In this document: positions 14,498 to 20,870 of the stretch, piece after piece | How positions within the stretch are numbered: the first letter of the stretch is position 1 | Layout: each line of letters begins with the position of its first letter | Virus record (IMG/VR): IMGVR_UViG_3300027833_000001 | Span: 62,001 to 126,000 of that record | Direction: 5' to 3' (one strand) | Length of the DNA stretch: 64,000 bases | Source: a virus | Position numbers and translations under genes: made by a program | Notes under the pieces: model-generated | Database searches by the model: none | Seen by the model: only the letters and a program-made list of their open reading frames with translations | What the model was told of the DNA's origin: nothing

Positions 14498-15997
14498 ATG
14501 CACGGAATAATATTTGGTGGCTTGTTAGAAGATTTGGGAATGGACTCCAGTATGGTAGCTATTCGTAGATCATCTGGTGCACATAAGATTGCTACCTTTT
14601 TACGAAATCATAATTATGATATTGAGGTTGTTGATTATATTCATCGATGGTCTTTAGATCAATTAAAAGAATTTACAATAAAGAAAGTTGATACAGAAAC
14701 TCTTTTCTTTGGCTTTAGTTCTACGTTTATGATTAGCACACCAGAGTTGATTGAGTTTGTTCATTGGCTCAAACATAGATACCCCAATATCAAACAAGTT
14801 ATCGGTAGTCAAAATCAAACAATGAAAGAACTACCATGTGACTGGTATATTTACGGGTATGGTGAGTACGCTATACTAGCACTCTTAGACCACTTTAAGG
14901 GAGGACCAGAGCCGATACACGAAGGAAATCTTATAAATGCATATACTAACTACAAGGCATTTCCTAAAGAAGACCTTTCTGTTCAATATACAGAGAGAGA
15001 TTTTATCCACGACAGGGAAATACTACTGTTAGAGATGGCAAGAGGATGTAAGTTCAAATGCTCTTTCTGTAGTTTTCCTATTCTTGGTGTGAAAGATGAT
15101 CATACAACCTCAGAACAATATTTCTACGATGAGATGTCGAGAAACTATGACAAATGGGGTACGACTCATTACATGGTTCTAGATGAAACATTCAATGATT
15201 CTAGTGAAAAGATTGCGAAGTATGCGGCTGCCTGTAGAAAACTTCCATTCCAACCTAAGATGACTGCTTATATTAGAGCAGACTTAATGGTATCTAGAAT
15301 ACAAGATTGGGACAACTTGATAGATATGGGAATCACTTCTCACTTTTATGGTGTTGAGTCTATGCATTTACCTTCAGCTAAATCAATTGGCAAAGGAATG
15401 AACAGTGGGCGAATACAAGATGGCTTGCTTCATGTAGATGAGTACTTCAGAAAGAATGCTGGCTTTTATAAAGGACATATATCTTTGATTGCTGGTTTAC
15501 CACATGAGACATTAGAAACTCTCAGAGAAACAAAAGACTGGTTAGAAAAGTATTGGATAGAAAATAGTTATCATATGAATCTATTGATGATTAAAGATTT
15601 AGATAAAAATGGCGCGTCACTGAATCATAACTCTGCTATGGATAAAGATTGGAAAAAATTTGGATACGAGAAAACTACTTTTCCAGAAGAGTGTGATATT
15701 GATTGGAGTAAAAGTTATAATCCATATTTCAAAAATCTCTATGAGTACGTGGATAAGTATGAATACTATTTGAAATGGAAAAATGAAAATTTAAGTCTTT
15801 ACGAGGTTACTAAATTTGCAGTTGAAGAATGGAGTCAAGCTAAACTTAAAAATGGTATTGATCCGTTTATGTATGATAAGTTCTTTATTGATCCCACAGT
15901 TAAGTGGAGTGACTTTGCTGAATTAAATCATTTAGAAAGAAGAACAGACCACATCAATGCTCATATAGATGACTATATAAGTAAGAAATTATCCTAG
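14498..15997 (+). CDS. radical SAM protein with B12-binding-like N-terminal domain
   Basis: A 499-residue iron-sulfur enzyme. The N-terminal 150 residues have the shape of a cobalamin-binding-type domain (GAHKIATFLRNHNYDIEVVDY, then VIGSQNQTMKELPCDWYIYGYGEYA) but lack the DxHxxG cobalt ligand motif, as in many such radical SAM proteins. The radical SAM cluster motif CKFKCSFC gives Cys184, Cys188 and Cys191. GVESMHLPSAKSIGKGMN and HISLIAGLPHETLETL follow, as in the Elp3/MiaB-like SAM-binding barrel. The reaction is unknown. It lies between a terminator and a converging minus-strand operon, whose last gene overlaps it by 4 bases, so it needs its own promoter, which I could not identify. Confidence 0.82.
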   Translation: MHGIIFGGLLEDLGMDSSMVAIRRSSGAHKIATFLRNHNYDIEVVDYIHRWSLDQLKEFTIKKVDTETLFFGFSSTFMISTPELIEFVHWLKHRYPNIKQVIGSQNQTMKELPCDWYIYGYGEYAILALLDHFKGGPEPIHEGNLINAYTNYKAFPKEDLSVQYTERDFIHDREILLLEMARGCKFKCSFCSFPILGVKDDHTTSEQYFYDEMSRNYDKWGTTHYMVLDETFNDSSEKIAKYAAACRKLPFQPKMTAYIRADLMVSRIQDWDNLIDMGITSHFYGVESMHLPSAKSIGKGMNSGRIQDGLLHVDEYFRKNAGFYKGHISLIAGLPHETLETLRETKDWLEKYWIENSYHMNLLMIKDLDKNGASLNHNSAMDKDWKKFGYEKTTFPEECDIDWSKSYNPYFKNLYEYVDKYEYYLKWKNENLSLYEVTKFAVEEWSQAKLKNGIDPFMYDKFFIDPTVKWSDFAELNHLERRTDHINAHIDDYISKKLS

Positions 15998-17709
15998 ACA
16001 GTACTAACAAATCTAGCAGAACCAGGCGCACCAGGTAATGATTGATCTCCACTAATTACCGAAACAGACACATCGCTTGCTTGAACATTAACGGGTGCTG
16101 GATCAGCAGGAGGTACAATAATAGTTGCAGGTTCGTTTCGTGCTTCATTGGCTGCCTCTGTCTCGCGTGATACTTCTTGAGAATCAATGTTTGGTGTACC
16201 AGTAGATGGTGTTAGTTTAGCACGTTTTTCAAGTTCTGTATTGATAAGATTTTGATTTTCCTCACTGATATCATCATCTTTAATAATAGCATTAAGTTGA
16301 CCTGTGGTAGCAGTAGCTATTTTAGAAGCATCGACTTCACTCTTACCAATTAAGTCCTCATCATATAGTCCACTATCTTTGGCTGAAGATAGGTTATCCG
16401 ATTGTGTTTTTCTTGCTGTAATTTCTTTTTCTATAAAGGCTTCTACTTGATCAGATGCTTCAGTAATTAGAGCCGGGAATCTTTCTTTGACTTTAGGATC
16501 TTCTTCTGGATATACTTCATGCAGATTGAAATATGCTTCTCTTGCAATTTCGTAACCAGCAACACCTAAAGTACCCACAGTACCTACACCAGGAACAAGT
16601 GCAGTTGCGGCTAGTCCTGCTCCTACCATGTCACCTTTAACTAGCTTATGAATCCCTATACCTGCCGCTACCGCTGATCCAACAAAGGGTATTGTTCTTC
16701 CTAATAGTCCTGGACCTTTTGAAGCAATTGCTTTAGTAACAGCCGCGGCTATTTTTCCACTCTTGGTCACACCAGTGACGTTTGCTAAATCAGCAGATAA
16801 AGCCGCGCCCTTAGCCGCTATAATTTTGAGGTTTCCTAATTTTGAAGGGTCGGTAACTCCTTCTTTTAAAAGTTTTCCTCCAAACCCTGCCGTTTTCTGA
16901 GCCTTAGTTAACCTTTCAGCATTACGACCCAACTCTACCACCTTCCCTGATTTCTCAACGACAGTATTTGCTACACCACCAACGGCTCTTAGTACACTAG
17001 GAGCGGCAGCCGCAGTTGCTCTGACAGCAGTTGGACTTATCGCTTTTGCTAACTTTGTAGAGTCTAGTGCTGAACCTGCATCAAGTGGACCAGTTCTATT
17101 AGGGTCTGACTGTAAATCAAGAATCGGCTTTGTTGGTGGAACACCTGGTACAACTTCCCCGTTGTTCTCTTTACCTTTAGCCATCTGGTTCATTAACAGC
17201 GAGAATCCTGCCAGTCCAAGTCCCGCTTTACCCAGGGTACCACCTAATCCTTTAACATTAGGCATTGAGAAACCAGATTTAATCTGTTCCTCTGATTTTT
17301 CGTTTGTCTCAAATACTTCTTTTTCTTCTGTATTTTTATTTATTTCTTTAAGTTCGCTTTTGATATCGATTAAAACATTTTCAATTTCTTGAAGATTTTC
17401 TGTAGCAGAACCTAAGGCGTTTGCATTTACCGTAGTACTTCTACCATTGTTATTAGCAGTTGGTGCAGACACTTGTGCATTTAGTCCACCTATATTTTTT
17501 CCTGGATTAGTACTAGCTAGATTAGCCCTAGCCATAGAATTAAAAGGAATTACATTGTCACTATTACCACGTCCTCCAGAAAGCATTCGGGCACCCATGC
17601 CAACTCCTGCACCCACTCCCACAGTTTTTGCTGTTCCTTTAAGAATTGGCAATGCTCTTGAAGCCATGGGTGAAACGATTCTACCGGCTCCTGCTAAAAA
17701 TGGTAACAT
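15994..17709 (-). CDS. tail tape-measure-like protein (gp29-like)
   Basis: A 571-residue protein close in length to T4 gp29 (about 590), which sets tail length at about 100 nm. The N-terminus is hydrophobic and glycine-rich (AGAGRIVSPMASRALPILKG). A coiled coil follows (about 104-133, ENLQEIENVLIDIKSELKEI). Three hydrophobic segments lie at about 165-185 and 345-392 (AAGIGIHKLV, VGAGLAATALVPGVGTVG), as seen in tape measures that may insert into the host membrane. The C-terminus is rich in Pro, Ala and Val. The start abuts the stop of the small frame upstream, in the order gp26-like, small overlapping frame, tape measure, which is the usual order for tail chaperones and tape measure. The assignment rests on size, composition and position. 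Confidence 0.55.
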   Translation of the reverse strand: MLPFLAGAGRIVSPMASRALPILKGTAKTVGVGAGVGMGARMLSGGRGNSDNVIPFNSMARANLASTNPGKNIGGLNAQVSAPTANNNGRSTTVNANALGSATENLQEIENVLIDIKSELKEINKNTEEKEVFETNEKSEEQIKSGFSMPNVKGLGGTLGKAGLGLAGFSLLMNQMAKGKENNGEVVPGVPPTKPILDLQSDPNRTGPLDAGSALDSTKLAKAISPTAVRATAAAAPSVLRAVGGVANTVVEKSGKVVELGRNAERLTKAQKTAGFGGKLLKEGVTDPSKLGNLKIIAAKGAALSADLANVTGVTKSGKIAAAVTKAIASKGPGLLGRTIPFVGSAVAAGIGIHKLVKGDMVGAGLAATALVPGVGTVGTLGVAGYEIAREAYFNLHEVYPEEDPKVKERFPALITEASDQVEAFIEKEITARKTQSDNLSSAKDSGLYDEDLIGKSEVDASKIATATTGQLNAIIKDDDISEENQNLINTELEKRAKLTPSTGTPNIDSQEVSRETEAANEARNEPATIIVPPADPAPVNVQASDVSVSVISGDQSLPGAPGSARFVSTV

Positions 17710-17916
17710 TTATTTGTTCCTTTGTTTATCTGCTTTCTTTTTCAGATGATCGACTAGCATACTTACGTATACTTCCCTTTCCCATGGTACCCAACTTTCG
17801 ATCTCTGTTAAACTGTATTTATGCTCTTGCATTAATAGAAAGTTAGTTTTGAAGAAATTCTCCATAGTTTCATGTGAAAGGGCTAGACGAAAAAATCCAG
17901 ATAGCCATTCATCCAA
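17710..17916 (-). CDS. gp51-like small tail-assembly frame (likely frameshift extension)
   Basis: A 68-codon frame beginning at a TTG, with no Shine-Dalgarno seen. It overlaps the end of the gp26-like gene by 34 bases. The sequence includes WLSGFFRLALSHETMENFF and PWEREVYVSMLVDHLKKK. Its position matches small cyanophage proteins annotated as gp51 (baseplate hub assembly catalyst), though T4 gp51 is much larger. The first internal ATG is codon 18. The overlap contains a perfect slippery heptamer that would carry ribosomes from the gp26 frame into this one by a -1 shift, so the natural product may be a C-terminal extension of the gp26-like protein rather than a free protein. Confidence 0.6.
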   Translation of the reverse strand: MDEWLSGFFRLALSHETMENFFKTNFLLMQEHKYSLTEIESWVPWEREVYVSMLVDHLKKKADKQRNK

Positions 17917-18590
17917 AAAGTACTGGTTTTACCACAGTCAGTGTTCTTACACGTAAATGTGATTTCTTTTTCAAGTACTGGCATTGTTCCAAAAAAATCT
18001 TTGAATGCGCCAAACTCACCCAACGATAGTCCTTCAATGAACTCTATCTTTTCTTCTTTTGTTAAATCAGAACCTAATACAACGTCATCTTTAGTATGAA
18101 TCTCTTCAATACAATTAGCCGCGGCATCATAGATATCTAATTCTTCTTTTGCGGCACCTATATCCATTAAATCTTCCGCTGTTGGATATCCCATTAGTAT
18201 TGCGGTATCATCATTCACTTTGATAGGATTAATATGATTTTCATTCTCTGTTATGTCGAAGTCATTCATGTCTATCTCTTCAGGTATAGATTCGTCACAA
18301 TGTCCACATACAAAGTTTACTGCAAATTTGGGCGAGATTGATGCCGATCTAAGTTGCATAAAAATCTTTTGAAGATCAAAGATTGGTATATCATCACCTT
18401 GTACTTCTCCAAAAGAACAATTTGTAATAACTTGTTGTATCGCTTTCACGAGGTCAAGTTGATCATCTGATTGTGTTGCTAGTACTAGTATTTTTTCTTC
18501 CTTTACTAGAAAGGGTCTAAATTTGAACTTCTTTCTCCTTGACAGTATGTGTATGTCAAAGAGTCGCTGGTCACTTTGGGGTATGCTCAT
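17883..18590 (-). CDS. 26: gp26-like baseplate hub/tail assembly protein
   Basis: A 235-residue protein of the T4 gp26 family (T4_baseplate). The N-terminal part reads QSDQRLFDIHILSRRKKFKFRPF and KEEKILVLATQSDD, typical of the family; two cysteine pairs, CGHC in the middle and CKNTDC near the C-terminus, could bind a metal. T4 gp26 is about 208 residues and works in baseplate hub assembly. An AGGAG lies five bases before the ATG. The last codons (GAT TTT TTC GTC TAG) contain a -1 slippery site. A shift there gives a 293-residue fusion of 234 residues of this protein and 59 from the next frame. Confidence 0.72.
   Translation of the reverse strand: MSIPQSDQRLFDIHILSRRKKFKFRPFLVKEEKILVLATQSDDQLDLVKAIQQVITNCSFGEVQGDDIPIFDLQKIFMQLRSASISPKFAVNFVCGHCDESIPEEIDMNDFDITENENHINPIKVNDDTAILMGYPTAEDLMDIGAAKEELDIYDAAANCIEEIHTKDDVVLGSDLTKEEKIEFIEGLSLGEFGAFKDFFGTMPVLEKEITFTCKNTDCGKTSTFWMNGYLDFFV
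17889..17895 (-). other. candidate -1 ribosomal frameshift site T_TTT_TTC
   Basis: On the minus strand the gp26-like frame reads GAT TTT TTC GTC TAG. The bases at 17895-17889 form T TTT TTC, a canonical X_XXY_YYZ heptamer in the correct frame and two codons before the stop. After a -1 slip the next codon is CGT, which is in the downstream 68-codon frame. I see no strong stem-loop just downstream. The arrangement matches the conserved frameshift of tail-assembly chaperones before tape-measure genes. Confidence 0.6.
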
Positions 18591-18608: not shown

Positions 18609-19319
18609 TTAAATATCGATAATGTCATCAAATGCATTTGATAAGCTATTCTTAATTTGATTCTCAAGACTGCCAAATCGTAAGTTAAGTATCTGTCCGA
18701 GAATACTTCTTCTATCTCCTTTTTCGTATGGAACCCATCTCTTGTACGAGAATGTTACTGTACAACGAGCCGCACCTTCACCACCACTATGAGATATTGG
18801 CGTTAGTGAGATGACTCTTGGAAAGGCTTCTTTCAAGCACCACTCTCCAACAATTCCATTAATTCTATCAAGTGCATAGACAGTTACTTCACCTATCATA
18901 TCACTGTAGAATGCGACTTCTTTAGAATAAGGGTTTACACTATTCATCATCCACTTCTCAAAATACTCTCTGACTTCCCAATCAGTATCACAGAAGAAAG
19001 TAAACGATGCTGTATCACCATAAAACTCTATGTTAGAAACTCTATTCTCTGTCCAAGATCCAATCTTTACTGGATTGTAGACTAGTTGTAGTCCTGGAAT
19101 AGCGGCTTCTTCACATAAAAGGGAAACATCTCTACTTCCATCAAGTCCTGTTGGTGCTTGAATGTATACAGCAAACCTATTTGCCCTGGCTAGATCATTG
19201 CGTCTAACCTTTGTGACCATATCACGTAGGTCAAATACGGGTTTATCTTTCCGCTTCTTAGTACTTGCTGTGTCTACATCGCTAGTATCTGTGGTTTTTT
19301 CTGGAGTTGTGTCTGTCAT
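18609..19319 (-). CDS. 54: gp54-like baseplate-tail tube initiator
   Basis: A 236-residue protein with a tail-tube fold signature. After a polar N-terminal 30 residues it reads NDLARANRFAVYIQAPTG, CEEAAIPGLQL and a series of beta strands ending in AARCTVTFSYKRWVPYEK, the pattern seen in gp19, gp48 and gp54 tube-like proteins. In T4, gp54 (about 320 residues) starts polymerisation of the gp19 tube on gp48. As gp19 and gp48 are found elsewhere in the window, gp54 is the best remaining role. It heads the minus-strand block and is preceded by a Shine-Dalgarno-like AAGGA and a late promoter motif. Confidence 0.6.
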   Translation of the reverse strand: MTDTTPEKTTDTSDVDTASTKKRKDKPVFDLRDMVTKVRRNDLARANRFAVYIQAPTGLDGSRDVSLLCEEAAIPGLQLVYNPVKIGSWTENRVSNIEFYGDTASFTFFCDTDWEVREYFEKWMMNSVNPYSKEVAFYSDMIGEVTVYALDRINGIVGEWCLKEAFPRVISLTPISHSGGEGAARCTVTFSYKRWVPYEKGDRRSILGQILNLRFGSLENQIKNSLSNAFDDIIDI

Positions 19320-19366: not shown

Positions 19367-19806
19367 TGACTTATAATAAACAATTGCACCAAGGTAAATT
19401 TATTCCAAAATTCCCCAATAAATATAAGGGAGATGTTGGTAATGTTATTTATCGCTCTGGATATGAAGTAAAATTTATGAACTGGTGTGATATGAATGAT
19501 GATGTTAGAGAATGGTCATCTGAAGAAGTTGTTATACCATATGTCTCTCCATTAGACAGTAGAGTACATAGGTATTACATTGACTTCTTGGTAAGAATAC
19601 GAGAGCAAACATACTTGATAGAAGTTAAGCCAGAAAGATTTACTAGAGAACCCTCTATACCAAAAAGAAAAACAAAAAGGTTTCTTAATGAAGTAGCACA
19701 GTATGCTGTAAATCAAGCGAAATGGAAATCTGCTAGAGAGTTTTGTGCAGATAGAAAATGGGAATTTAAGATTATAACTGAAAAAGAACTAGGAATAAAA
19801 TATTGA
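19366..19806 (+). CDS. 4: gp4-like head completion protein
   Basis: A 146-residue protein resembling T4 gp4 (also called gp50/gp65-region head completion protein), about 150 residues in T4. The diagnostic parts are YRSGYEVKFMNWCDMN (about residues 29-44), EWSSEEVVIPYVSPLDSRVHRYYIDFL and IEVKP, ending in WEFKIITEKELGIKY. The order of D and ExK residues resembles a nuclease fold, which is known for this family. It finishes DNA-filled heads. I chose the ATG at 19366; a GTG at 19345 is possible. The stop overlaps the TTG start of the next gene. Confidence 0.9.
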   Translation: MTYNKQLHQGKFIPKFPNKYKGDVGNVIYRSGYEVKFMNWCDMNDDVREWSSEEVVIPYVSPLDSRVHRYYIDFLVRIREQTYLIEVKPERFTREPSIPKRKTKRFLNEVAQYAVNQAKWKSAREFCADRKWEFKIITEKELGIKY

Positions 19807-20870
19807 CTTATTCTGAAAAAATGTATAATACTGATATCTGGCATGATAAGTTCAAAGATATTCCAAATACGTGCGTACTAGGTTGTGAGAAAATTTTCGA
19901 ACGGGATTTGAGTGATCATGTTAGAAAAGCTATTGAGGTGTTACCCTTAACAGAAAACATAATCGTCACTTTTTTATACGAAGCATTACATTCTATACAT
20001 TGGAATGTTGTGTTTAATCTTTTGCTTGATGTGGGATACAAACGTATTTTGCTTATAGATGGAGGAGAATTGCCTCCTATTTTACTGGGAAAGCCAAGAC
20101 ACGAAAATATTCATCATTTTCCAGATAGAACATTACAAACTAGTCCTTATAGAAACAAGTTGGAACTATCTAATAGATACGGGAATAAACAATTAGTACC
20201 TGAACGAGAAAGAACAAAAGTTTTTATTAGTTTAGCAAGAATGGTTAGGGAAGAAAGAATATACTTCACAAATAAGATATTAAACGATACAGAATTATAC
20301 AATAAGGGTATAGTATCATGTGGGTGGGGAGACACAGAGCCCATGAAACTCCAGTGTATATCATTATCAGATGAAGAGATGAGTAGATTTCCTGTAACGC
20401 TTGGACATCAAAATGCCGATCAGCACGGTTACTTTGAGGAGTTCTCTACTGCTATGTTCAATGTAGTACTGGAATCTTCTATCGGTATGAATACATCACG
20501 ATACTATGATGGAGTATTTACAGATACAGATAGACTCTTTATAACAGAGAAAACAACTAAGGCATTCTATATGCACCAAATACCCATTATATTAGGAGCT
20601 CCAGGAATAGTACAACACCTAAGAAGCATGGGATATGATATGTTTGATGAGATTGTTAACCATGATTACGATAACGAAGATAATATTTTCAAACGATGTG
20701 ATATGATATTTGCCGAATTGAAACGACTATCTTCAATACCACTAAACCAATTAAACAATATGTTGACGATACAATCAACTTTACCCGATAGATTTCATCA
20801 CAATCGATCTTTATTGCACCAGTATGCTGAAGATAAAGTAATTTTAGATTGGATCGATAATAACTTTTAA
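19803..20870 (+). CDS. glycosyltransferase-like protein (copy 4)
   Basis: A 355-residue member of the paralogue family found in the first 8 kb. The family signature is FITEKTTKAFYMHQIPIILG (about residues 246-265) and GYDMFDEIVNHDYD (about 277-290). The central part carries a VVLESSIGMNTSRYYDG block that matches SLVTET in copies 1 and 2. The predicted TTG start overlaps the gp4 stop and has AGGA 8 bases upstream; ATG 19821 is an alternative. It is inserted between head-completion and baseplate genes, so it is probably expressed with them and may modify a virion component. Confidence 0.6.
   Translation: MTYSEKMYNTDIWHDKFKDIPNTCVLGCEKIFERDLSDHVRKAIEVLPLTENIIVTFLYEALHSIHWNVVFNLLLDVGYKRILLIDGGELPPILLGKPRHENIHHFPDRTLQTSPYRNKLELSNRYGNKQLVPERERTKVFISLARMVREERIYFTNKILNDTELYNKGIVSCGWGDTEPMKLQCISLSDEEMSRFPVTLGHQNADQHGYFEEFSTAMFNVVLESSIGMNTSRYYDGVFTDTDRLFITEKTTKAFYMHQIPIILGAPGIVQHLRSMGYDMFDEIVNHDYDNEDNIFKRCDMIFAELKRLSSIPLNQLNNMLTIQSTLPDRFHHNRSLLHQYAEDKVILDWIDNNF

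Follow-up and report, generated by a model that had tools for sequence, protein, structure and literature searches.

The gp26-gp51 junction

In a stretch of 64,000 nucleotides (the window) of the 165-kb IMG/VR virus record IMGVR_UViG_3300027833_000001, from a marine T4-like phage, a gene resembling gp26 of phage T4 ends where a frame resembling T4 gp51 continues in the -1 register, which raises the question of whether the two frames encode separate baseplate proteins, as the names of their families imply, or the short and long forms of a single one. The evidence from this locus and its relatives argues strongly that the gp26-like protein and a gp26-gp51 fusion are short and long tail-assembly chaperones, the long form being made by -1 frameshifting in the manner of gpG and gpGT of phage lambda.

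The gp26-like gene (17883..18590, minus strand), putatively the short form of the chaperone, encodes 235 amino acids that match phrog_150 ('baseplate hub', E=4.5e-50) and PF12322 (T4_baseplate, E=5.9e-49); the PF12322 score of 167 bits, against a curated cut-off of 24.5, places the protein in the T4 gp26/gp51 family. The gene ends ...CTG GAT TTT TTC GTC TAG, and the slippery heptamer T_TTT_TTC that the earlier note had read there (17889..17895, minus strand) does fit the gp26 frame as X_XXY_YYZ, one codon before the TAG stop (17883..17885, minus strand). From the Phe-Phe of the heptamer the -1 frame runs for 61 codons to a TAA at 17712-17710 (17710..17895, minus strand), and it matches phrog_634 ('baseplate hub assembly catalyst', the gp51 family; E=1.4e-25), the homology starting exactly at Phe-Phe. 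The only upstream start for this frame in the window is a TTG at 17916 without a Shine-Dalgarno sequence in front of it, and the predicted fusion comes to 234+59 = 293 residues, both as the earlier note had it. When the entire 165-kb record, which is possibly incomplete, was searched with phrog_150, one locus matched, consisting of the gp26 frame and its -1 frame, and no second gene for an in-frame fused long form was found.

From this arrangement we infer that slippage occurs at some rate and that its products act as chaperones. Most ribosomes would terminate at the gp26 TAG to give the 235-residue protein. The minority that slip one base back on T_TTT_TTC, where the tRNA-Phe of both the P and the A site would re-pair with TTT TTT, would read on in the -1 frame, and the resulting 293-residue protein would carry the gp51-like helical domain as well. 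If the pair works as lambda gpG and gpGT do, the tape-measure protein specified by the next gene would be coated by the gp26 part common to both forms, and the gp51 part would recruit the tail-tube protein.

Conservation of the heptamer and the frame relation

Two scans of viral contigs yielded 160 loci, to which annotated phages were added, and 143 distinct loci remained after removal of duplicates. The gp51 domain lies in the -1 frame in 162/162 loci that hold both domains (143/143 after duplicate removal), and T_TTT_TTN stands in register at the junction in every one of the 143 (TTTTTTC in 108, TTTTTTT in 30, TTTTTTA in 4 and TTTTTTG in 1). Conservation of heptamer and frame relation in homologues, the check that the earlier note had proposed, is thus complete in this set. 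The six T are also kept after clustering by gp26 identity (137/137 at 90%, 100/100 at 60%, 59/59 at 45%). In all 143 loci the first Phe is TTT and the codon before Phe-Phe ends in T, its amino acid being variable (D, S, N, H, A, T); in the rest of the gp26 frame, just 10 of 136 Phe-Phe pairs have the T_TTT_TTN form. A further 23 loci, on phage contigs that had been binned with their hosts, came from collections of bacterial genomes; all 21 that were readable have the -1 relation, 20 of them with six T and one (L188) with G_TTT_TTT. The site is found in phages of Vibrio, Aeromonas, Pseudomonas, Caulobacter, Sinorhizobium, Rhizobium, Stenotrophomonas, Cronobacter, Pelagibacter and cyanobacteria.

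Conservation of the -1 frame sets in at the heptamer. The frequency of the majority residue is 0.15-0.47 over the six codons before it and 1.0, 1.0, 0.63, 0.57, 0.41, 0.85, 0.63 and 0.84 from the heptamer onward. Stops in the -1 frame occur upstream of the site (directly before Phe-Phe in 28 loci), and the 15 codons that begin at the site contain none. A tblastn search with the gp51 domain matched 515 phage records; among the matches listed, most start no more than 3 residues from the slippery Phe-Phe. At ten loci the gp26 stop lies ten codons downstream, and there too the gp51 sequence is clearly recognised in the -1 frame (FFRIALSH...).

Signals around the heptamer

A Shine-Dalgarno-like GAGG peak was found upstream of the heptamer, in 8-nucleotide windows starting at about -15 to -11. 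The signal is partly due to a conserved Glu-Gly, yet the codon choice is biased: Glu is encoded by GAG 47 times and GAA 23 times at the motif, compared with 667 and 1928 times elsewhere (p=1e-12), and the Gly codon GGG is over-used. These p-values assume independent loci, which the loci are not, and the values after clustering (p=7e-9 at 60%, 1e-4 at 45%) are the fairer ones. Downstream, the 60 nucleotides starting 5 nucleotides past the heptamer are predicted to fold more stably than a synonymous-codon null (mean z -1.3 +/- 0.15; -1.2 +/- 0.24 at 45% clustering), with z of -0.2 to -0.3 in flanking windows. The motif and the structure excess are seen in most relatives.

Predicted structures

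The AlphaFold2 model of the gp26-like protein (mean pLDDT 91.6, pTM 0.86) resembles gp26/gp51-like viral proteins, and the gp51 domain is predicted as four helices. Foldseek comparison of the gp51 domain with the PDB gave a best E of 6.6, sequence and profile searches of the PDB with gp26 and the gp51 domain gave nothing meaningful, and a Pfam scan of 63 gp51 domains gave nothing credible. The likeness to lambda-type chaperones would therefore be one of working alike, homology between them not having been detected.

Alternative explanations

Instead of being fused to gp26, gp51 might be a separate protein with its own start, or one made by termination-reinitiation at the gp26 stop, the T-run being incidental. 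Separate gp51 genes are indeed annotated in databases, and in KVP40, Cr30, EniLVp02, RHph_I34 and Ps15 a -1-frame ATG overlaps the gp26 stop as TAATG or TGATG, so that an extra, separate gp51 product is possible in some relatives outside the cyanophages. When the -1 frame was searched from its opening to codon 15, however, 70 of the 143 loci had no ATG, GTG or TTG at all; a nearby ATG was present in only 44 and an ATG with a Shine-Dalgarno sequence in 2, so the conserved start of this kind that the earlier note had named as contrary evidence is absent. The -1-frame conservation begins upstream of the candidate ATGs, and the heptamer present in all 143 loci would be left unexplained, which makes a separate gp51 very unlikely. 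The fusion could also arise by slippage of RNA polymerase on the T-run, which exists at every locus and reaches 8-9 T in 18 of 143. In 113 loci the run is exactly 6 T, shorter than expected for efficient polymerase slippage; moreover, the X_XXY_YYZ register, not required for transcript slippage, is fixed at all loci, and enrichment of Shine-Dalgarno-like motifs and of RNA structure is a ribosomal feature. We regard transcript slippage as most improbable. The possibility that the proteins are, as annotated, a baseplate-hub subunit and a hub-assembly catalyst, with a fused form that has no tape-measure role, follows classical T4 naming; gp26 and gp51 appear in the literature as hub-assembly chaperones, and gp26 was placed in the hub by earlier studies (PMC3004832). 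Against this stand the tape-measure-like gene directly next in many phages, the pairing of a short with a long form, as in G/GT, and the report that T4 gp51, essential and of unknown function, is absent from the particle (Leiman et al. 2010, PMC3004832), and we consider the hub reading unlikely. The hub and the tape-measure-chaperone descriptions may nevertheless be one function, because gp29, the tape measure of T4, also belongs to the hub.

Several observations weigh against frameshifting to a lambda-like chaperone pair. In Vibrio phage K448 (L175:3150-3420), a gp51-like -1 frame follows gp26 and the heptamer is absent (TCA CTT TTC AAG TAATGG); here an ATG overlapping the gp26 stop suggests reinitiation instead of slippage, and the annotated genes nearby are gp5-like, not tape measure. 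A covariation search for a single conserved helix downstream of the heptamer was negative, the top pairs being spread over several diagonals; only an excess of folding energy is therefore claimed, from a structure that drifts. Neither the Shine-Dalgarno-like motif nor the downstream structure is present in the window or in its closest relatives (L011, L013, L016, L012), the structure score z being about +0.7 to +0.95 for L001, and because both are missing the rate of slippage in the clade may be low. Finally, Foldseek found no solved structure resembling the gp26 model in the PDB, known tail chaperones included (best E=0.97). We tentatively suggest that the marine T4-like frameshift has a three-part signal, comprising GAGG about 10 nucleotides upstream, T_TTT_TTC and a drifting downstream RNA structure, and that the window's lineage possibly relies on the heptamer alone and has a different short-to-long ratio.

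Neighbouring genes

The ATG of the next gene (15994..17709, minus strand; 571 amino acids) lies at 17709, immediately past the stop of the gp51 frame. Its product had no match among the profiles searched, tape-measure families included, and it is assigned as a putative tape measure by position, size and synteny: genes in the same position match tape-measure families in Cr30, phiN3 and three further loci (L014, L023, L039), and the one in HTVC008M is annotated 'putative tail tape measure'. By synteny with relatives, the pair thus lies directly upstream of a tape-measure gene, as lambda G and GT do. Upstream of gp26 is a gp54/gp19-like gene for the tail tube or a tube initiator (18609..19319, minus strand; 236 amino acids; phrog_45, tail tube, E=5.4e-33), and a tail-tube-like gene also precedes gp26 in HTVC008M, Mosig, KVP40 and Cronobacter S13. 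Further along, among structural genes, a 355-amino-acid protein (19803..20870, plus strand) resembles family-10-type glycosyltransferases (FITEKTTKAFYMHQIPIILGAP).

T4, Aeh1 and other relatives

T4 gp26 and gp51 share the families of the window locus (PF12322, phrog_150 and phrog_634). Both match PF12322 (8.8e-64 and 3.9e-52, respectively) and they match each other by BLASTP (2e-6). T4 gp51 covers all of phrog_150 and its C-terminal end matches phrog_634 (1.2e-23); the -1-frame profile matches T4 gp51 (1.8e-8) and not T4 gp26, whose stop falls just past the Phe-Phe position. Judged from these sequence matches, T4 gp26 and gp51 are paralogues, gp51 being the long (fused) form because it matches phrog_150 throughout and phrog_634 and the -1-frame profile at its end, and gp26, which lacks the latter matches, the short form. 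In contrast to the window locus, the two T4 genes are separate and divergently transcribed, the heptamer is absent (GAG TTC TTT GAG) and frameshifting is not needed. The earlier note's suggestion that gp26 and gp51 are a chaperone pair like G and GT gains support from this paralogy, from the gene order and from the tape measure recognisable in several relatives.

Most T4-like phages, including members of T4's own family Straboviridae (KVP40, Aeromonas P19, EniLVp02, VmeM-32, Cronobacter S13 and Aeh1), keep the gp26/gp51 frameshift site, in place of which T4 has two paralogous genes. Aeh1 has been reported as the sole T4-like phage without gp51, and cyanophage gp51 as a truncated protein of about 20% of the T4 length (PMC3037559). 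Aeh1 (L202:2277-2490) has GAT TTT TTC GAC TGA, and the -1 frame there reads FFRLTLVND...; the published absence is explained by this domain being unannotated, and the apparent truncation of cyanophage gp51 is accounted for by the frameshift site. An unannotated -1-frame gp51 domain is also present in P19 (L171), Cronobacter S13 (L203) and VmeM-32 (L204); placement of Aeh1 in the genus of Aeromonas phage P19 was ruled out by taxonomy. Annotated cyanophage gp51 genes (L006:2064-2198 and similar records) often start at an internal ATG deep in the conserved domain, and such annotations are an artefact of the frameshift. In many genomes, therefore, gp51 is mis-annotated with an internal start and should be joined to gp26.

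In actinobacterial genomes (L201:1375-2121; L200, minus strand), the gene for a single PF12322 protein has a tail-tube gene as its neighbour, which is the arrangement of contractile-injection clusters. These proteins were considered as in-frame gp26-gp51 fusions (YGWSEPEIMALSPLRRRYYLEL) and rejected, their C-terminal similarity to gp51 being insignificant in pairwise comparison (z 1.8 and 0.3).

Comparison with known systems

The earlier note knew of no frameshift described for gp26 and gp51, a belief that does not hold: Vladimirov, Gautam and Davidson (Virology 2022) are cited both for a poly-T signal for -1 frameshifting within the short gene and for the T4-type arrangement of one short gene and one fused long gene (citing papers PMC12846349, PMC10885494). 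As these papers describe it, the central idea is prior art since 2022, and the phage examined here is an uncultured new member beside the systems of that work; the stimulatory signals, their loss in the window's lineage and the re-annotation of Aeh1 may be additions to it. G-T frameshifting has been described as widely conserved, with T4 excepted (Atkins et al. 2016, PMC5009743). The slippery sequence of lambda gpG/gpGT (PMC5009743) differs from the T_TTT_TTC of the window, and the fold of the gp26-like protein has no detectable match among solved structures. The chaperone locus of phage Adele and of Vandenendeviridae/Andersonviridae resembles that of the window in having a -1 frame open past the short gene, before the tape measure, with GTTTTT as its signal in place of T_TTT_TTC (PMC12846349).
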